Source of the DNA: a virus
Strand: one strand, 5' to 3'
IMG/VR virus record: IMGVR_UViG_3300005613_000503
Location: 1-20,259 of that record
Length of the DNA: 20,259 nucleotides
In this document: positions 8,440 to 20,259 of the stretch, piece after piece
How positions within the stretch are numbered: position 1 is the stretch's first letter
How the letters are laid out: every line of letters starts with the position of its first letter
Program-made: the position numbers and the translations under genes
The notes under the pieces: model-generated
Seen by the model: only the letters and a program-made list of their open reading frames with translations
What the model was told of the DNA's origin: nothing
The model's database searches: none

Positions 8440-8450
8440 TACAATGACAA
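8419..8450 (-). promoter_or_regulatory. Candidate Bacteroidota promoter for the glycosyltransferase gene
   Basis: On the minus strand, TAGTTTTG (8426-8419) matches the Bacteroidota -7 consensus TAnnTTTG exactly. A TTG lies 21 nt upstream (8450-8448) in the -33 position. The downstream ATG at 8388 leaves a short leader. It sits inside the tandem repeat. It is only a motif match. Confidence 0.4.
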
Positions 8451-8500
8451 CCAACGCTATACAACACGCTAAACGCGCGTTTCATAGCGAGCCGTTGGTG
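8449..8500 (-). other. attC-like recombination site B, minus strand
   Basis: Read on the minus strand, the site runs from CACCAAC (8500-8494) to GTTGGTT (8455-8449), which are complementary in six of seven positions. Inside are GCTAT/ATAGC arms and the self-complementary AAACGCGCGTTT. The outer boxes fit the RYYYAAC / GTTRRRY pattern loosely. The stem is irregular, so this is weaker than the sites at the right end of the window. Confidence 0.4.
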
Positions 8501-8531
8501 TTCATTAAAACGCCACTTCGTTAACACCAAC
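8494..8531 (-). repeat. Short inverted repeat resembling an empty cassette
   Basis: GTTGGTGTT (8494-8502) and AACACCAAC (8523-8531) form a perfect 9-bp inverted repeat with a 20-nt loop. Read on the minus strand, this segment starts with GTTGGTG and ends with its complement CACCAAC, and it lies between two attC-like structures. That is how a cassette without a gene would look. A plain hairpin is the alternative. Confidence 0.5.
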
Positions 8532-9282: not shown

Positions 9283-9318
9283 TCAGTTGTGCAACGCATC
9301 ATAGCCAGAACGTTGTCA
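9283..9318 (-). other. Possible degenerate attC fragment behind TerL
   Basis: Read on the minus strand directly after the TerL stop, the sequence TGACAACGTTCTGGCTATGA is followed by a second AAC/GTT pair (GCGTTGCACAAC). It resembles the left half of the attC-like site at 19058, which has AACGGTTTGGCTATGCGTT. No convincing right arm follows. It may be a remnant or a coincidence. Confidence 0.25.
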
Positions 9319-10641
9319 AATATACATCTTTTGCCTATACTTCAAATATTGTTGCGCATACGTGTGATTAACCAAATATCTGACGCAATCTAAATGGTCG
9401 GCTAATTGATGTATGTCCTTTCGATTGCTCTTGATAATAGAACCAGTACCATCAGCCTCAACAAAACGCATATCCCTAATGGTATTCTCACACTTTGGGT
9501 CAATCCTGAAGTCAATATCAAACACATTACCCCTAGAATGATAAAGCATGTAGTTCAGGTCATTGCGGCTATTAACATGCTTTGGGTTGGGCGTTGTCTG
9601 TATCTGACTATGCTTCAACCTTAATTCCCTACGTATCTGCTCAAAGTTAGAAGCGTGGTCATTTTGACTAATCTCTTTCTTGTTTCCGTTGTAATCTCCC
9701 GTTATAATGCAGTTCCAAAGGTTCTGAGTAAACTTAGAACGTATTGAGTTGACTGCCTTTATTATCGAACCATCCTTGATAGTTTCTTCCATGAATATAT
9801 GACAATGCCAACCGTCAGCATCTTGCCAAACGTGAGAGTAAATAAACCCGAATGGCTCAATGTTGAAGTCCATTGATATTATCAACTGCTTGTCATCCCG
9901 ATGGATACACGGCTTGATGTGATGTTCATCAGACCATTCATACGCGAATTGATTGCTTATTTCTATTACCTCCCAATCCCCTTCAACGAACCTTTGATAG
10001 TCTAAAGGCATCATGTTAGCCTTTAAGCCATCTAAATAGCTTTTGGGTATGAATGGGTTATCTGTAATCTTTGCTTGAATGTACGCCCATTTTTCAGGTA
10101 GTGTTCCGTTCTTCCATCGGTCGTAAAACTTAGCCTTAACCCAATTGTGTGTAGGGTTACACGTTGCAAGAATAACGCTAGGAACATCACCAGCTTTTAA
10201 CCAAGTGCCTGTTCTTTCAATAAGCTTATTAAACGTTGCTTCTTGGAGTTCGTTTATTTCTTCAGCACCAGCACCGTTGATTTCAAGACCTCTAAATCTG
10301 TTTAACTCTTTGTCGGTATCAAACGACTCAGCCATGAATATTATTTGGCTATCGTTCTTGAATGTAACCGTGAATGTATCCCGATTAAAGTCTCTTACGT
10401 AATTTGAAAGCCCCTCAGAAAGTAACGCCTGAAATGATACTAAAGTGGTTCGTTTTAATGTGGGTAATGATTCACGAACTATTACCCATCTTGAACCAGG
10501 ATACTCACTTGCTAGATAACAAAATGTTGTAAGAAGCCAAACTGTTTTACCGCCTCTGATAGCACCTCCGTATAGTATAATGTCCTTTTCGCCCGAAGTG
10601 GCTAACTCAAATGCCTCACTTTGTTTCGGGCTTAGTTCCAT
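9316..10641 (-). CDS. terL: Terminase large subunit
   Basis: This 441-aa DNA-packaging ATPase/nuclease pumps genomic DNA into the prohead. The Walker A is GGAIRGGKT at residues 25-33. An acidic Walker B region lies near 127-132 (EEINEL), with the coupling motif ILATCNPT at 157-164. The C-terminal RNase H-like nuclease has conserved Asp in ISMDFN (258) and ITGDYNG (316). The length is standard for the PBSX/Terminase_3-6 groups. The start overlaps the TerS gene by 26 nt. The following genes are not portal and capsid as usual but two small unknowns. Confidence 0.93.
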   Translation of the reverse strand: MELSPKQSEAFELATSGEKDIILYGGAIRGGKTVWLLTTFCYLASEYPGSRWVIVRESLPTLKRTTLVSFQALLSEGLSNYVRDFNRDTFTVTFKNDSQIIFMAESFDTDKELNRFRGLEINGAGAEEINELQEATFNKLIERTGTWLKAGDVPSVILATCNPTHNWVKAKFYDRWKNGTLPEKWAYIQAKITDNPFIPKSYLDGLKANMMPLDYQRFVEGDWEVIEISNQFAYEWSDEHHIKPCIHRDDKQLIISMDFNIEPFGFIYSHVWQDADGWHCHIFMEETIKDGSIIKAVNSIRSKFTQNLWNCIITGDYNGNKKEISQNDHASNFEQIRRELRLKHSQIQTTPNPKHVNSRNDLNYMLYHSRGNVFDIDFRIDPKCENTIRDMRFVEADGTGSIIKSNRKDIHQLADHLDCVRYLVNHTYAQQYLKYRQKMYI

Positions 10642-12588: not shown

Positions 12589-12711
12589 TTCAACGTTGCA
12601 GCTAAAATAATTGCGTTTTAACGGCTGGCGGTATGGTGTCGGTTTGCCTTGCAGACATTTTCGCCTTACCACAGACCTTAATGGCAAACTGCACTATACC
12701 GCTTGTTGTGT
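12588..12711 (+). other. attC-like site to the left of the TrmH cassette
   Basis: This non-coding structured stretch starts with ATTCAAC (12588-12594), which fits RYYYAAC, and ends with GTTGTGT (12705-12711), which fits the GTT-type core. Imperfect arms GCGGTATGGTGTCGGTTTGC (from 12628) and GGCAAACTGCACTATACCGC (12683-12702) pair with single-base irregularities, including an unpaired base, as in integron attC sites. A second possible left box, TTTTAAC, lies at 12616-12622, nearer the arms. It fills the gap between the recombinase and the methyltransferase gene. Confidence 0.55.
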
Positions 12712-12778
12712 GTCTGGTGCGGACAAATTGCTAAATAGTTAATTAAATGAACAGAAGTAATAATTAAATATTTTAGAG

Positions 12779-13243
12779 ATGGCAAATATTAGAGGATTTT
12801 TTGAAATTGGTATAATTCAAGGTAAAAATAATGATAACCTTGGGACACTTTGGAGAAGTGCAAACATAATGGGGGCAAATGGTATTTTTACAATTGGTGC
12901 AAGATACCCAAAGAAACACAGAACAGATACTATGAACACGCCAAAGCACATACCATTAAGAGAGTATGATGACTTTGAAACATTTATGAAAGCAATACCA
13001 AGGGATACAGAAGTTATTGGTGTGGAGCTTGATGATAGGGCTGAAAACATAACTACATTTAAGCACCCTCAAAGAGCAGTATATATTTTAGGCGCTGAAG
13101 ATACAGGTATTCCAGAAAAATACATGGATAAATGCGACCGTATAATTAAAATACCATTTGATAAAAATAGCTTTAATGTCGCTGTTAGTGGTAGTATTAT
13201 TATTTATGACCGAATTTTAAAAGCGGGTCGGCAAAATATTTAA
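12779..13243 (+). CDS. SpoU/TrmH-family RNA 2'-O-methyltransferase
   Basis: This 154-aa single-domain SPOUT methyltransferase should transfer a methyl group from S-adenosylmethionine to a ribose 2'-OH in tRNA or rRNA. All three family motifs are seen: N20...R26 in NLGTLWRSANIMGA, motif 2 LGAEDTGIPE at 104-113, and motif 3 KIPFDKNSFNVAVSGSI at about 124-140. The last two build the trefoil-knot cofactor site. The length matches the short TrmL-like members without an N-terminal RNA-binding extension. A tiny upstream frame (ATG 12747, six codons) precedes it. The gene sits alone between attC-like ends, unrelated to its replication neighbours, so it looks like acquired cargo. Confidence 0.85.
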   Translation: MANIRGFFEIGIIQGKNNDNLGTLWRSANIMGANGIFTIGARYPKKHRTDTMNTPKHIPLREYDDFETFMKAIPRDTEVIGVELDDRAENITTFKHPQRAVYILGAEDTGIPEKYMDKCDRIIKIPFDKNSFNVAVSGSIIIYDRILKAGRQNI

Positions 13244-13295
13244 TTATGGTCAAGTTCCTACAAATGTTTATTAAATGCACTAATGTAGCACTTGC

Positions 13296-13334
13296 ACACA
13301 ACAATGGCTAAAGAATACGACAAATTTGTCCTAT
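13296..13334 (+). other. Truncated attC-like right junction of the TrmH unit
   Basis: ACACAAC (13296-13302) is followed by AATGGCTAAAG, like the left half of an attC, then ACGACAAATTTGTCCTAT (13317-13334) containing the perfect palindrome GACAAATTTGTC. No GTT box or right arm is present. The same order (AAC box, TGGCTAA, ACGACAAA...GTCCTAT) recurs at 15492-15531. Confidence 0.5.
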
Positions 13335-14765: not shown

Positions 14766-14999
14766 ATGAACACTTACACAATCAAATGGCATGGGTACGA
14801 ACTGAAAATTGACGCTAATGTTTTTGACAATCAAGTTGAGATTGAAGACATTGAAGGAATATCTTTAGTTGACTTTTACCACAATTCAAACAACCAAACT
14901 TTACAAGAGATTGCGGATTTAGTTTTAGAGCAGGACTACACGAATAATCAAGAAGCCGCGAGTTATAGAGAGTGGGACACTTTGGAAGAAAGAGATTAA
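14766..14999 (+). CDS. Small acidic hypothetical protein
   Basis: This 77-aa, strongly acidic protein begins MNTYTIKWHGYELKIDANVF. It has a likely beta-hairpin start and a helical second half (NQTLQEIADLVLEQDYTNNQ). There is no known family. It stands directly behind the repeated promoter and is therefore the first product of that transcript. An attC-like site starts at its stop codon. The low pI and size would fit a DNA-mimic or inhibitor-type early protein, but nothing specific supports that. Confidence 0.55.
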   Translation: MNTYTIKWHGYELKIDANVFDNQVEIEDIEGISLVDFYHNSNNQTLQEIADLVLEQDYTNNQEAASYREWDTLEERD

Positions 15000-15058
15000 C
15001 GTTGAGCGTATGTTCCGTATGTAACGCAGTGGAATATGGAACATACGCATTGTTATAA
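14994..15058 (+). other. attC-like site left of the 15-kb cassette
   Basis: A 65-bp structure runs from GATTAAC (14994-15000, overlapping the stop codon) to GTTATAA (15052-15058). The arms GCGTATGTTCC (15006-15016) and GGAACATACGC (15038-15048) are perfectly complementary over 11 bp. Unequal unpaired spacers separate them from the boxes (5 and 3 nt). The architecture matches a short integron attC. A transcription terminator is unlikely because no T tract follows. Confidence 0.6.
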
Positions 15059-15086
15059 TCTGTACCACTGCACAAAACTTAATTAA

Positions 15087-15491
15087 ATGGAAAGAAGTGA
15101 ATTAATACAACTATGTAAAGACGCTGTTGTTCATCATACAAAATGGCAAGACAGAGATAGTTACTCTGCTCAAAAATCTATTCAATCAATACACGAAGGT
15201 TTGACGGCTGGACTAGATTTCAGGGTCGTTACCAAAAAGATTGATAAAGGCTATCACTCAGATGAAAGAACTTTGATAATTGAATTTATACAGCCAATAG
15301 ACCACTCAAAATTAGAAAAAGCTGAACACCTTGAAATAAGTACTAGAGAAGATTACTTCCGAGATTGCGACCCTGATTATGAAACAGAAATGTTTGAAGG
15401 TGAAGGAATAGATTTTTGGAGTAGTTATACGCAAACTTATATGCCAACCAGAAAGCGTCTTGTTGAAAGTAACGGAGGTGACTGGTATTGA
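15087..15491 (+). CDS. Cassette-borne hypothetical protein
   Basis: This 134-aa acidic protein begins MERSELIQLCKDAVVHHTKW. A helical N-terminal third is followed by beta-like segments (LDFRVVTKKIDKGYHSDERT, LIIEFIQPID). The C-terminus is rich in aromatic and acidic residues (EGEGIDFWSSYTQTYMPTRK). It has no membrane segment or catalytic motif I recognise. It is the only gene between the complementary cassette boxes, and its start context (TTAATTAAATGGAAAGAAGT) closely resembles the leader of the TrmH unit. This suggests cargo, possibly a defence or counter-defence factor. The function is unknown. Confidence 0.6.
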   Translation: MERSELIQLCKDAVVHHTKWQDRDSYSAQKSIQSIHEGLTAGLDFRVVTKKIDKGYHSDERTLIIEFIQPIDHSKLEKAEHLEISTREDYFRDCDPDYETEMFEGEGIDFWSSYTQTYMPTRKRLVESNGGDWY

Positions 15492-15531
15492 TTATAACTA
15501 TTGGCTAATGCTAACGACAAAAAAGTCCTAT
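15492..15531 (+). other. Truncated attC-like right junction of the 15-kb unit
   Basis: TTATAAC (15492-15498) follows the stop codon immediately. TATTGGCTAATGCTA and ACGACAAAAAAGTCCTAT (15514-15531) come next, aligning with 13296-13334 in order and spacing. The ATG of the next phage gene lies within the last bases. Confidence 0.5.
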
Positions 15532-16416: not shown

Positions 16417-17091
16417 ATGGCAAAAGACCCAGCATTTTTATTTTACGCTCAAGATTGGATAACAGGAACGTTAACAATGACTATGGAAGAAAGGGGGCAA
16501 TACATTACAATTCTTGCTGTAATGCATCAGACAGGAAGGATAGACGAAAAAACCATTAGCTTTTTGGTAGGTAACGTTTCTGATAACCTAAAAGATAAGT
16601 TTAGCGTTGATGAAAATGGAAAGTGGTTTAATAAGAGATTAGAAGAGGAGATTGAGAAACGTGCAAAATTTGCTGAATCAAGAAGAAAGAATGGTTCAAA
16701 AGGAGGTAGACCAAAAGCAAGTGTAAAACCTAGTGGTTTACCTAATGTAAAACCTACAAATAACCATACTGAAAATGAAGATGAAGATGATAATTTAACT
16801 GATATTAATAAAGTAAGCGATTTCGATATTTTTTGGATGGCTTACAATAAGAAAGTAGATTTAGTGCCATGTCAAAGAGAATGGTTGAACATAGACGAAC
16901 CTGAAATTGATAAGATAATAGCCCACGTTCCTAAATACGTTGCGGCTACTCCTGATGTTAAATTCAGAAAGTCTCCTTTGAAGTACCTTAAAGACCGTAC
17001 ATGGTTAGATGAAGACCTACCAATGAGCCGCGATAAAGAGACAGGAAAAACAGACATACCAAAAGACTTTTCAAACATTCAGTATCCATGA
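16417..17091 (+). CDS. DUF1376-type phage replication protein
   Basis: In this 224-aa protein residues 1-80 (KDPAFLFYAQDWITGTLTMT, MEERGQYITILAVMHQTGRI) are the hallmark of the DUF1376 N-terminal domain found in phage replication initiators. A basic Arg/Lys/Gly linker (RRKNGSKGGRPKAS), a low-complexity acidic stretch (about 118-130) and a C-terminal FDIFWMAYNKKVD...W domain follow, resembling helicase-loading primosome components. It overlaps the DnaC-like gene by 4 nt, as in many phage O/P-type pairs. It would bind the origin or ssDNA and bring the loader and host DnaB. Confidence 0.75.
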   Translation: MAKDPAFLFYAQDWITGTLTMTMEERGQYITILAVMHQTGRIDEKTISFLVGNVSDNLKDKFSVDENGKWFNKRLEEEIEKRAKFAESRRKNGSKGGRPKASVKPSGLPNVKPTNNHTENEDEDDNLTDINKVSDFDIFWMAYNKKVDLVPCQREWLNIDEPEIDKIIAHVPKYVAATPDVKFRKSPLKYLKDRTWLDEDLPMSRDKETGKTDIPKDFSNIQYP

Positions 17092-17765
17092 ACCACATCC
17101 AGCACTACATACAATCATTAGGCAAATCGGATAAATTTATCCTTAGAGGCAAAAATGAATTTGATTTTGACCATTGCAAACAGGCGTACATTCAAATCAG
17201 TAAATCAATAGTGACTGATTGGATTGATAAAGACCCGAATCTTACAGACCAAATAGTTCATTACTGCATTGGCTCTGAGAAATTCAAAGGAGACTTGAAC
17301 AAGGGAATTATCTTTATGGGTTCAACTGGAACGGGCAAAACGGTAATACTAAAAGCAATGTCAATGTTGCTCGGATACATGGTTAGATTCAGATTCTTGA
17401 TTTATACTGGTTGGGAGATGGAGCGCGTGTATATGATAGCCGACCAAGTGAACAACGAGAAGTACAAACTTGAACAAGCGTTAAACGCTAAGATGTTAGG
17501 GATTGACGATTTAGGTGAGGAGCATACGACCATTAAGGTTTACGGCTCAGATATAAACGTTGGTATTGAATCACTAACAAAGAGGCATTTAGAATACGTG
17601 AACAAAGGGCATTTAACGTTTATAACTACTAACTTGAATGCTGATTTGATAGCTAGTAAGTATGGCGCAAGGATTGAATCAAGGTTGTACGAAATGTGCA
17701 ACATGATAGGCGTGAAAGGTAACGACATGAGAAAAGCAACGGATTTAACGAGTAAAAACTACTGA
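17088..17765 (+). CDS. DnaC-like AAA+ helicase loader
   Basis: This 225-aa ATPase should load the replicative helicase. The Walker A is GSTGTGKT at 78-85, Walker B MLGIDDLG at 136-143, the sensor I-like FITTNL at 178-183, and the box VII-like KYGARIESRL at 191-200 with a probable Arg finger at 199. The N-terminal 70 residues would contact the helicase. The length is slightly below E. coli DnaC. It overlaps the DUF1376-like gene and is separated by one base from a DnaA domain-IV-like gene, so ATPase and DNA-binding parts lie side by side. Confidence 0.82.
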   Translation: MNHIQHYIQSLGKSDKFILRGKNEFDFDHCKQAYIQISKSIVTDWIDKDPNLTDQIVHYCIGSEKFKGDLNKGIIFMGSTGTGKTVILKAMSMLLGYMVRFRFLIYTGWEMERVYMIADQVNNEKYKLEQALNAKMLGIDDLGEEHTTIKVYGSDINVGIESLTKRHLEYVNKGHLTFITTNLNADLIASKYGARIESRLYEMCNMIGVKGNDMRKATDLTSKNY

Positions 17766-17766
17766 A

Positions 17767-18252
17767 ATGGACAGAAAACAAGAACAAATGAAACTGACAG
17801 AACAAGAACTAAACGCAATTGAACTACTCGTTGACCAATTCAGACAACGGTTAATTGAAAATCACAAAGACTTAATCAACTACGCAACGGCTATCAACAG
17901 TAGCGAAGAGAAATTCAAAACATACGTCAAAGTGATAGCTGATTACTTTTGCATCGAACCCGAAAAGATAACGGGCAAACGCTCCAGGTTGACGGAGATT
18001 AAACGCGCTAGACACATTCTTTGGTGGTTGTGTAGAACTGGCGAATCAAACGTTAAATGGTCGCTCTCAAAGATTGGGCAAAAGACCTGCTTGGAAAGAG
18101 CGTTCGACCATGCAACTGTACTTCATGGGGTTAGAACTATTGGCAATGATATTGACTACGACCCAGCCACTAAGCAAGACCTGAAAGCTATTGTGGAGTG
18201 CTTGGGGTTCAGGTTGGTAAAGAACGGTGCTAATTACAAAACTGTAATTTAG
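17767..18252 (+). CDS. DnaA domain IV-like DNA-binding protein (second copy)
   Basis: In this 161-aa protein, residues 1-50 are helical. Residues 52-127 match DnaA domain IV closely: VKVIADYFCIEPEKITGKRS, then a helix with KRARHILWWLCR, then SLSKIG and a DHATVLHGVRTI recognition helix, nearly the DnaA signature DHSTVLHA. An insertion (QKTCLERAF) separates SLSKIG from DHATV. There is no ATPase domain. With the AAA+ loader one base upstream, the pair could work together as a split initiator at the phage origin. Operator copy 3 overlaps its stop codon. Confidence 0.75.
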   Translation: MDRKQEQMKLTEQELNAIELLVDQFRQRLIENHKDLINYATAINSSEEKFKTYVKVIADYFCIEPEKITGKRSRLTEIKRARHILWWLCRTGESNVKWSLSKIGQKTCLERAFDHATVLHGVRTIGNDIDYDPATKQDLKAIVECLGFRLVKNGANYKTVI

Positions 18253-18285: not shown

Positions 18286-18413
18286 ATGACAACAATAACT
18301 TTAGATAAGCACCCAAACTGGAGATTAAGTTCAACTGGGTAAATGGTATTCGTGGTGCATATCCGCGAATCGTAGGAGAAAATCGAGAACGAGTAAAACA
18401 AATTGTAAAATGA
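18286..18413 (+). CDS. Short gene read through a possible -1 frameshift
   Basis: ATG 18286 opens an 18-codon frame (MTTITLDKHPNWRLSSTG). In the -1 frame, opened just after TAA 18306-18308, lies a convincing coding stretch, LEIKFNWVNGIRGAYPRIVG and 11 more residues. It ends with TGA 18411-18413, which overlaps the next gene's ATG as ATGA. The heptamer CCCAAAC (18312-18318) lies in the right phase (C CCA AAC) at the start of the overlap. A frameshift there gives a 42-aa protein. Alternatives are a mutated pseudogene, a sequencing error, or a non-ATG start. The family is unknown. Confidence 0.4.
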
Positions 18414-18601
18414 TGAAAATATATGAAGTAGAATTTGAAGGTATGTGGCCTGTTGGAAATTGCTTAATAATTGCGGCACTATCTAAACGTGATGCAACCG
18501 CCATTGCTAAAAGTACCATTACACATACTGATAAATTCGAAGTAAAAGAAGTGAAACTTGATTACCCTAAAGTGATTGTTTATTTAGATGGAAACTACTA
18601 A
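18410..18601 (+). CDS. Small hypothetical protein
   Basis: This 63-aa protein begins MMKIYEVEFEGMWPVGNCLI. Its pattern (strand, helix with ALSKRDATAIAKSTI, strands VKEVKLDYPKVIVYLDGNY) suggests a small alpha/beta fold. There is no known family. The first ATG overlaps the stop of the preceding frame and gives MM; the second ATG at 18413 is equally possible. It lies between the arms of the 15-bp inverted repeat and after operator copy 3, so it may be produced on its own small transcript. Confidence 0.55.
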   Translation: MMKIYEVEFEGMWPVGNCLIIAALSKRDATAIAKSTITHTDKFEVKEVKLDYPKVIVYLDGNY

Positions 18602-18628: not shown

Positions 18629-18649
18629 CGTAGGCGATTTTCTCCTACG
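18629..18649 (+). terminator. Possible weak terminator hairpin
   Basis: CGTAGG / CCTACG form a 6-bp stem with a 9-nt loop, followed by TTTTGTG. It follows the last clear phage gene and precedes the cassette-like region. The T tract is short, so this is tentative. Confidence 0.3.
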
Positions 18650-18705
18650 TTTTGTGTATGATTTCGGGCGGGATAAAACCCCTAACCTTTAAATAAAGAA
18701 AAAAG

Positions 18706-19050
18706 ATGATTAAAGAAACTAAAGTATCGGACAGCACTACAAAGCCTGAATTATACACTTTGTTAGCTGACTGTGGCGGTTTTTCAAGTGGAGCGTTGGT
18801 TATGTTGCGCCTTTCTACTGATTATGGATATTCTAATACTTGGTGGAGAGTTATGTTTTGCGACAATGACGGAACTTTTATTGGAAGATTAGAAAGGCAT
18901 CATTGGCATGAATACACCGCACATAAAAAGGGAGATGATGTTAGATGGGATGCTGGAAAGGTGCAACATATTTGGAGCGAAGGGGAAGAGTTTTGTTATG
19001 GAGATAACATTACAATATGTAGCTGTGCTGGCTTATGTAGGAATAAGTAG
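18706..19050 (+). CDS. Hypothetical protein, probable first cassette of the right-end array
   Basis: This 114-aa protein begins MIKETKVSDSTTKPELYTLL. It is rich in Trp, His, Cys, Gly and aromatic residues, with mostly beta-like segments (GYSNTWWRVMFCDNDGTFIG). Several Cys and His (HHWHEYTAHK, CYGDNITICSCAGLC) could bind metal, but no defined zinc motif is evident. An attC-like site follows 7 nt after its stop. The expected cassette start (GTTAGCT) is not found upstream, so its left border is unknown. The function is unknown. Confidence 0.55.
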   Translation: MIKETKVSDSTTKPELYTLLADCGGFSSGALVMLRLSTDYGYSNTWWRVMFCDNDGTFIGRLERHHWHEYTAHKKGDDVRWDAGKVQHIWSEGEEFCYGDNITICSCAGLCRNK

Positions 19051-19057
19051 CCATTGC

Positions 19058-19120
19058 AGCTAACGGTTTGGCTATGCGTTCGGCTGACGATAGGAAGCTG
19101 ACGTATAGGTGTTGTTATGT
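19058..19120 (+). other. attC-like site 1 of the array
   Basis: AGCTAAC (19058-19064) and GTTATGT (19114-19120) bound arms TATGCGTTCGGCT and AGCTGACGTATA. These pair with one unpaired T and two G-T oppositions, leaving 8- and 6-nt spacers next to the boxes. Extrahelical bases on one arm are a hallmark of attC folding. Confidence 0.6.
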
Positions 19121-19166
19121 ACTGGCGCATAGCACGAACCTAAGCAACCAAAAGAATTTAGAAAAT

Positions 19167-19697
19167 ATGATATTGAAAAGAGAGTGGGCAATGCCTAACG
19201 GAAACACGTTTGAAATAAAGCCGATTAAGAAGTTTATTCAGCGATACAATTCTGGCAATTTAGAAAGCGCTGACCCTTTTGCAAACCGAAACAGGATTGC
19301 CAAGTTTTTGAACGACCTTGACCCTGATATGGGTACTGAATACAATATGGATGCAATCGAGTTCCTAAAGCAATTTGAAAGCAATAGCCTTGACCTTGTA
19401 TTGTTTGATCCACCATATAGCCCAAGACAGGTAAGCGAATGCTATAAAAAACTTGGTAAGACTGTGAACATGGAAACTACACAGGCTTCTTTTTGGAGTA
19501 ATATGAAAAAGGAAATTGCCAGAATTGTGAAGCCAAACGGGATTGTACTTTGCTTTGGATGGAACTCTCAAGGAATAGGAAAAACAAGAGGCTTTATTAT
19601 GGAGGAAATTCTTTTGGTTGCGCATGGAGGACACCACAATGACACTATATGCACAGCCGAACGGAAAAACACAGACCTTTTTAGCGCTTGTACATAA
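19167..19697 (+). CDS. Cassette-borne DNA adenine methyltransferase-like protein
   Basis: With ATG 19167 the product is 176 aa, beginning MILKREWAMPNGNTFEIKPI. The frame is open back to 19068, but that part is the attC structure, so I reject the longer start. DPPY at residues 81-84 (LDLVLFDPPYSPRQVSECYK) is the catalytic motif of amino-methyltransferases acting on adenine N6 or cytosine N4. KPNGIVLCFGWNS at 122-134 resembles the strand-turn behind it. A clear FxGxG cofactor motif is lacking, so the protein may be a minimal or divergent form. The stop codon lies inside the attC box. A cassette methyltransferase could protect phage DNA from restriction. Confidence 0.7.
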   Translation: MILKREWAMPNGNTFEIKPIKKFIQRYNSGNLESADPFANRNRIAKFLNDLDPDMGTEYNMDAIEFLKQFESNSLDLVLFDPPYSPRQVSECYKKLGKTVNMETTQASFWSNMKKEIARIVKPNGIVLCFGWNSQGIGKTRGFIMEEILLVAHGGHHNDTICTAERKNTDLFSACT

Positions 19698-19784
19698 CGG
19701 TTTGGCTAAAACCAGAAGCGAACTGAATACATACGAATTGAAAGCGAAACTCGCCCTCGCTTTTGGTTTTAGGTTTTGTTGGGC
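19692..19784 (+). other. attC-like site 2 of the array
   Basis: ACATAAC (19692-19698, containing the stop codon) and GTTGGGC (19778-19784) enclose arms CTAAAACCAGAAGCGA and TCGCTTTTGGTTTTAG, complementary over 16 bp except for one G-T opposition. About 30 nt lie between the arms. It is the best-formed site in the window. Confidence 0.7.
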
Positions 19785-19802
19785 GTAGTTAATTGAAATG
19801 AG

Positions 19803-20036
19803 ATGAACCCAGTACCATTAAACACCGAGATTGAGATTGAAGACCCTAACGCAGAAATTGACATTGAGATTGATTATAGGTGCTTTTTTACCCCAAATAA
19901 AGCATTTGCTCCAATGACTGTATTTCGCTCCATTTACGAAGGAGAAACTTTGCAACAAGCAATTGCCAAGGGTAAAAAGAGGTATGAAAAAGATTATCAT
20001 AAAGTTGAAGTAATGGCGGTTAGGGTTGACCAGTAA
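19803..20036 (+). CDS. Cassette-borne hypothetical acidic protein
   Basis: This 77-aa protein begins MNPVPLNTEIEIEDPNAEID. The N-terminal 25 residues are strongly acidic and alternate Ile/Glu. A compact segment follows (YRCFFTPNKAFAPMTVFRSI), then a helix (EGETLQQAIAKGKKRYEKDY) and a last strand. There is no known family. The leader GTAGTTAATTGAAATG between the cassette core and the start is nearly identical to that of the next cassette. The stop is 4 nt before the next attC box. Confidence 0.55.
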   Translation: MNPVPLNTEIEIEDPNAEIDIEIDYRCFFTPNKAFAPMTVFRSIYEGETLQQAIAKGKKRYEKDYHKVEVMAVRVDQ

Positions 20037-20040
20037 TTAC

Positions 20041-20135
20041 GCCCAACGTTGCTGCTAAAAGCTGAACCGCAAGAACAGACATATCAAATTAGAACCGTAC
20101 ACGTCCAGCGGTTTTGATTTTAGCAATTGTTGGGC
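20041..20135 (+). other. attC-like site 3 of the array
   Basis: GCCCAAC (20041-20047) and GTTGGGC (20129-20135) are perfect complements and fit RYYYAAC/GTTRRRY exactly. The arms GCTAAAA....AACCGC and GCGGTT....TTTTAGC pair around a 4-nt internal loop. Length 95 bp, as in site 2. Confidence 0.7.
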
Positions 20136-20153
20136 GTAGTTAATTTGATTGAA

Positions 20154-20259
20154 ATGGAAACGATAGATGAAAAAATTAGACGTCAGAACGGAAATGAATT
20201 GTGGAAATCCGATTACGATTACAGCATACTGAAGCACTTGATACATAGAGCCGTAGCAG
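20154..20259 (+). CDS. Partial gene of the next cassette
   Basis: A frame opens at ATG 20154 with METIDEKIRRQNGNELWKSD and stays open to the right edge (35 codons). It follows the core GTTGGGC and the leader TAGTTAATTTGATTGAAATG, matching the start of the previous cassette. The N-terminus is charged and helical. The family cannot be judged from this fragment. Confidence 0.5.
   Translation, partial: METIDEKIRRQNGNELWKSDYDYSILKHLIHRAVA

Follow-up and report, generated by a model that had tools for sequence, protein, structure and literature searches.

Long cassette arrays are known from the superintegrons of Vibrio, in which the integron integrase IntI stands at the head of a long one-way array of one-gene cassettes, with near-uniform sites of about 120 nt and complementary boxes within each cassette. 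Single cassettes also insert outside arrays, at GTT-containing attG sites. XerA, for its part, serves chromosome dimer resolution. Integrons as defined by IntI have been reported to be nearly absent from Bacteroidetes, where IntegronFinder 2.0 found a complete integron only in Salinibacter (PMC9024848).

Clusters of attC sites without an integrase (CALINs) have been described in phages by Qi et al. (2023; PMC9892861), including P12002L, whose clusters carry methyltransferase (MTase) genes. In that study IntI1 recombined five of six tested phage CALIN sites, one of them P12002L_attC2, whose coordinates are unmatched to the sites of our own model. The array described here resembles the P12002L CALINs, integrase-less attC clusters that include MTase genes and are carried by a virulent phage whose host belongs to Bacteroidota. 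By the published definition (at least two attC sites within 3 kb and no integrase), it is a CALIN with four sites in 1.5 kb, as scored by a site model that differs from that of Qi et al. An earlier note on this DNA had called an array beside phage early genes, without an integrase, unusual, but clusters of this kind were in print in 2023, and being a phage CALIN does not make the array new in kind. What appears to be new is the family to which its sites belong, together with the recombinase linked to that family and a polarity that is reversed. The published account, unlike ours, treats CALINs as integron parts that IntI1 recognises; it connects them with no recombinase of Bacteroidota, and on orientation it mentions "divergent directions" in P12002L and no general reversal.

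The cassette array and its phage fragment

The window, by which we mean the whole stretch of DNA analysed, is a 20,259-base IMG/VR record that carries phage terminase, tail, recombination and replication genes, as judged by family profile matches. We regard the record as phage because it encodes a terminase large subunit at 9316..10641 on the minus strand (PF04466, phrog_979). Adjoining the array is a replication module at 16417..18252 on the plus strand, with genes for a primosomal protein, a DnaC-like loader and a DnaA-C-domain protein. We searched IMG/VR for relatives of the DnaC-like protein and of the 77-aa ORF of cassette B (below) and found none. A tyrosine recombinase (PF00589) was sought across the window and none was found, which bears out the earlier remark that no integrase is present here.

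Four attC-type sites, all on the minus strand, make up the array: S0 at 18639..18771 (E 3.9e-13), S1 at 19055..19123 (E 2.7e-8), S2 at 19689..19787 (E 7.7e-11) and S3 at 20038..20138 (E 1.6e-5). These values come from R1, a covariance model built from 32 diverse sites in Flavobacteriaceae chromosomal arrays and none from the window; it was run on the window with filters off, and its E-values rest on a shortened calibration. The three attC-like structures reported earlier, S1 to S3, are thus real and lie where they had been placed, with the boxes as given, and a covariance model independent of the window finds all of them; the count was short, however, as S0 had been missed and two isolated sites lie further into the fragment. 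In the R1 training set 95% of stem cells are paired, falling to 22-44% when the stem is slid, and there are 92 two-sided changes compared with 29.5 in shuffles. A narrower motif gave one match in 300 Flavobacteriaceae genomes, the same as a reversed-pattern control; it was too specific, and the covariance model was therefore used instead. Folding of the single sequences clearly supported S3 (z -4.3 to -4.9), moderately supported S2 (z -2.0 to -2.4) and gave no support for S1 (z -0.8 to -1.0), so that folding alone could not decide. No Rfam family matched the window.

In our reading, each cassette has a single gene, flanked by an R' box (GTT...) and the exact complement of that box (...AAC), and one attC-type hairpin, which in phages lies upstream of the gene. 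As in attC sites, R'' (..AAC) and R' (GTT..) enclose paired arms whose imperfect stem is conserved, and in five cassettes the R'' at the cassette end is complementary to the R' at its start over 8-10 nt. Cassette 0 (18762..19064, plus strand), with S0 as its hairpin, begins with GTTAGCTG at 18762, which pairs over 8 nt with CAGCTAAC, the box preceding S1 and ending at 19064. Its gene lies within ORF 18706-19050, whose annotated-looking start is overlapped by S0; the true start is likely to be further downstream. Cassette A (19114..19698, plus strand), with hairpin S1, runs from GTTATGTAC at 19114 to GTACATAAC ending at 19698; its ORF, 19167-19697, encodes an orphan DNA methyltransferase of N6-adenine type with a DPPY motif (phrog_11619, E 2.1e-58). 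Cassette B (19778..20047, plus strand), with hairpin S2, has a 77-aa ORF at 19803-20036 between GTTGGGCGTA at 19778 and TACGCCCAAC ending at 20047. Cassette C (20129..20259, plus strand), with hairpin S3, has an open frame behind the box GTTGGGCGTA at 20129 and is truncated by the contig end. The ends of cassettes A and B had been called exact complements, and they are, over 9 and 10 nt; the chance of such complementarity at the next site, beyond the fixed GTT/AAC, is 2.4e-4 and 6e-5, respectively. Set against the canonical RYYYAAC / GTTRRRY, GTTGGGC fits, while GTTATGT and GTTAGCT fit RRRY incompletely.

Just to the left, CGTAGGAGAAAATC at 18371 and GATTTTCTCCTACG ending at 18649 form an inverted repeat, perfect over 14 nt, around a 63-aa ORF (18410-18601), and the right end of the repeat abuts S0. 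This is perhaps a further cassette, whose boxes have GTA/TAC in place of GTT/AAC on both sides.

Two further cassettes, of one gene each, stand singly between phage genes. Isolated cassette a (14991..15498, plus strand) comprises a minus-strand site at 14991-15061 (R1 E 1.7e-6), boxes at 15052 and 15498 that are complementary over 9 nt, and a gene for 134 aa at 15087-15491. Isolated cassette b (12613..13302, plus strand) has a minus-strand site at 12613-12714 (R1 E 8.4e-4), boxes at 12705 and 13302 with 8-nt complementary ends, and a SpoU-family RNA methylase gene at 12779-13243 (PF00588, E 1.3e-24). Their single placement is like that of insertions at attG-type sites, although a clean empty site was not found: in the relatives L133-L135 the slot of the SpoU cassette holds another small gene. 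A weak site at 8442..8503 on the plus strand (R1 E 0.01) lies between minus-strand structural genes; no convincing partner box was found for it, the best being 6 nt.

Sharing and reassortment of cassettes among phages

Other viral contigs carry close relatives of the MTase cassette. One of them, the phage contig L002, has a terminase from a different family; its 93% identity to the window begins at the GTT box and ends at the AAC box. Such box-to-box sharing of the MTase cassette involves L002, L004 and the pair L006/L040. Among MTase homologues both boxes change together (GTTATGT/ACATAAC, GTTATCT/AGATAAC and GTTATAC/GTATAAC). In L040, a contig of an Aequorivita metagenome-assembled genome (MAG), the MTase array has phage-type polarity and lies between terminase and portal genes, which marks it as phage or prophage. 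The isolated virulent Polaribacter phage P12002L has eight R1 sites, and between 29 and 39 kb of its genome five annotated DNA methylase or modification genes are found among such sites.

A third phage contig, L136, contains hairpin S2 together with its right-hand box at 99% identity over 103 nt. There, as in the window, S2 precedes a cassette with the box pair GTTGGGCGTA/TACGCCCAAC; the gene before S2 in L136 is not the MTase. An assignment of S2 to the MTase cassette was dropped on this evidence. Because L136 keeps S2 and the box pair with another gene in front, S2 goes with the cassette that follows it. The hairpins face against the genes, and S2 does not belong to the MTase.

In L136 the hairpin and boxes are kept while the gene is different, with no similarity to the window gene. 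The MTase pairs window/L002 and L006/L040 share gene, leader and boxes at 93% but neither of the hairpins. A chromosomal pair, L121/L125 (87%), has the same end box and different hairpins; as a counterexample, a triplicated cassette in L131 retains its downstream hairpin. From these comparisons hairpin, boxes and gene appear to reassort separately, of which we found no account in the literature searched. One hypothesis is that two folded sites exchanging both strands in full would trade their hairpin tips, with the boxes staying where they are.

Chromosomal arrays behind a XerA-like recombinase

A chain search for hairpin, box, gene, complementary box and hairpin returned many arrays from viral contigs, whereas shuffled sequence gave next to none. 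It also matched one Bacteroidales MAG and one Aequorivita MAG, in both cases beside a tyrosine recombinase. Homologues of the Aequorivita recombinase were found in 62 of 80 Flavobacteriaceae genomes (E<=1e-40), and among 20 recombinase loci most of those with enough downstream sequence hold a cassette array there, with near-constant sites of ~119 nt between boxes. All 147 sites that R1 finds in the 20 loci lie downstream of the recombinase and 146 are on its strand, a count that is not independent of the model, as it includes the 32 training sites, for which position and strand had been used only via array orientation. In G050 the array sites run from 3,130,152 to 3,198,597 (68 kb), the first ~0.5 kb behind the recombinase. 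Sites were present in all 18 genomes picked for the recombinase (12 to 91 each, among the matches listed) and in 9 of 18 genomes with no recombinase match at E<=1e-40 (Fisher p 0.001, genome size uncontrolled). In our sample of the phylum, a site at E<=1e-6 was found in 41 of 118 genomes. The sites, those of the window included, form a Bacteroidota family whose long arrays in Flavobacteriaceae chromosomes run one way, immediately after a XerA-like tyrosine recombinase.

Three such "superintegrons" reach 60-70 kb (G050 C1 3128481-3198597, G078 C1 531359-601475 and G024 C1 2728770-2794770). DNA directly upstream of the recombinase (L112-L124) is about 65-73% identical between genera, which suggests that the array head occupies a conserved position in the chromosome. 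Four contigs (L113, L117, L123 and L124) break off within about 0.2-2.1 kb past the recombinase, which would fit assemblies failing in repeat-rich arrays. One site type, AATGTATAACCGCAATTACGGCGGATTCGAC..., is nearly unchanged across L129, L112, L127, L131 and L116; other sites are genome-specific.

The array-linked recombinases score 176-210 bits against the IntI family, whose cut-off is 265, and the match falls into two stretches with the IntI-specific part left out. Of four tested, three exceed the cut-off of the XerA-type model NF040815 (221-235 bits against 220). Aligned to class 1 IntI1, they lack the whole IntI insert and retain the catalytic residues. The nearest solved structures are XerA-like (4a8e, 5hxy), followed by IntI4 (2a3v). 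At E<=1e-60, 250 Flavobacteriaceae genomes gave no match to the IntI family, but neither did the control, and the claim that these enzymes are not IntI therefore rests on the cut-off score and the missing insert. The chromosomal arrays share with Vibrio superintegrons the head recombinase, the one-way order, the one-gene cassettes, the near-uniform sites and the complementary boxes; a recombinase heading such an array is found in Flavobacteriaceae chromosomes and not in the phage fragment. In contrast to sedentary integrons with IntI, the recombinase here has no IntI insert, falls below the IntI cut-off and reads toward its array. It differs from XerA (NF040815) in heading a cassette array and, in its Flavobacteriaceae forms, in carrying an N-terminal extension of ~100 aa. 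Our search of the open-access literature, with preprints and most subscription papers outside its scope, returned no account of XerA-linked arrays in Bacteroidota or of reversed polarity; the NCBI description of NF040815 includes "integron integrase", and others may therefore have noticed the link.

Cassette polarity and the origin of the phage array

Among chromosomal cassettes whose ORF reaches 60 aa, 72 of 74 point away from the recombinase, in the same direction as the site. At viral loci, flanking ORFs run against the site in 130 cases and with it in 11 (20:2 by contig, with two ties; two-sided sign test about 1e-4, worked by hand). These counts leave out the chromosomal loci L050 and L052; including both gives 133:15, and the contig count with L052 is 21:2. 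In P12002L, all seven R1 sites between 30 and 39 kb are on the plus strand and nearly all genes on the minus strand. An integron attC lies 3' of its gene, as the chromosomal sites do, whereas the phage site lies upstream. Phage sites, at 69-133 nt, are also shorter than most chromosomal ones. As integron mechanics have it, a cassette circle fixes the relation of gene to site, and phage cassettes would therefore not simply be chromosomal cassettes that moved in. In line with this, viral cassette ORFs have no homologue in the 20 chromosomal loci at E<=1e-4. On polarity, the cassettes of phages and those of chromosomes look like two pools.

The array is genuine and phage-borne. Two facts would suit a contig passing from a prophage into a chromosomal array: the array extends to the end of the contig, and this site family does form arrays in chromosomes. 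We nevertheless consider this the least probable reading of the locus: the polarity is of the phage type, and other phages, the isolated P12002L included, show the same layout. The question whether this is phage or host DNA had been left undecided in the earlier note, and the evidence favours phage. Reading the end of the window as an attC-type cassette array in phage DNA is supported because the replication module (12.6-13.3 and 15.0-15.5 kb) contains the same sites and cassettes, because the MTase cassette recurs in L002, a phage with a different terminase family, because hairpin S2 recurs in L136, and because an isolated virulent phage, P12002L, has eight such sites. It is also very improbable that the hairpins act between phage genes as transcription terminators or in some other regulatory role, with no part in recombination. 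They are intergenic and consistently placed relative to genes, as such elements would be; terminators would not be expected, however, to have complementary boxes that are specific to each cassette and change together among homologues, or to mark where identity between unrelated phages ends.

We think it probable that the window ends in the integrase-less array of a Bacteroidota phage, whose cassettes are moved by a host XerA-like recombinase acting in trans. Most likely, the host would supply such a recombinase during infection, and the enzyme would recognise the folded single strand of the site and insert or release cassettes, presumably at G|TT. The phage may thereby gather small accessory genes, for instance MTases that could guard against host restriction. 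Several observations count against this explanation: the fragment carries no recombinase, and we infer the action of the enzyme on phage sites; the phage sites are shorter and reversed; the hairpins of the MTase pairs were not inherited with the gene; and the viral cassette ORFs find no counterpart in the chromosomal loci. It is unlikely, though less so than the two readings above, that the array is an ordinary integron remnant, a classic CALIN whose cassettes were donated by bacterial integrons of the IntI type and which the phage carries passively. Phage CALINs with MTase genes and the recombination of five of six tested sites by IntI1 (PMC9892861) speak for it. Against it, the 250 Flavobacteriaceae genomes yielded no IntI-type enzyme at E<=1e-60 (with the control silent too), and moving a chromosomal cassette would not yield the reversed gene polarity. 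R1 also has no match in class 1 integrons, which is a difference in sequence and says nothing of mechanism.

Beyond the host recombinase acting in trans, we give even chances to a broader proposal, in which Bacteroidota would have an integron type of their own, XerA-like and without the IntI insert, alongside a mirror-image phage pool with its site fixed upstream; there would be no sense-orientation replacement between the pools, and hairpin, boxes and gene would be separately exchangeable. If a XerA-like enzyme serves the long arrays of Bacteroidota, both the definition and the distribution of integrons change, and whether the IntI insert is required for reading folded sites becomes testable. 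How genes gain their attC sites is an old open question, and the reassortment of hairpin and gene offers a handle on it. A separate, reversed phage pool would amount to a mobile store of small accessory genes, such as methyltransferases.
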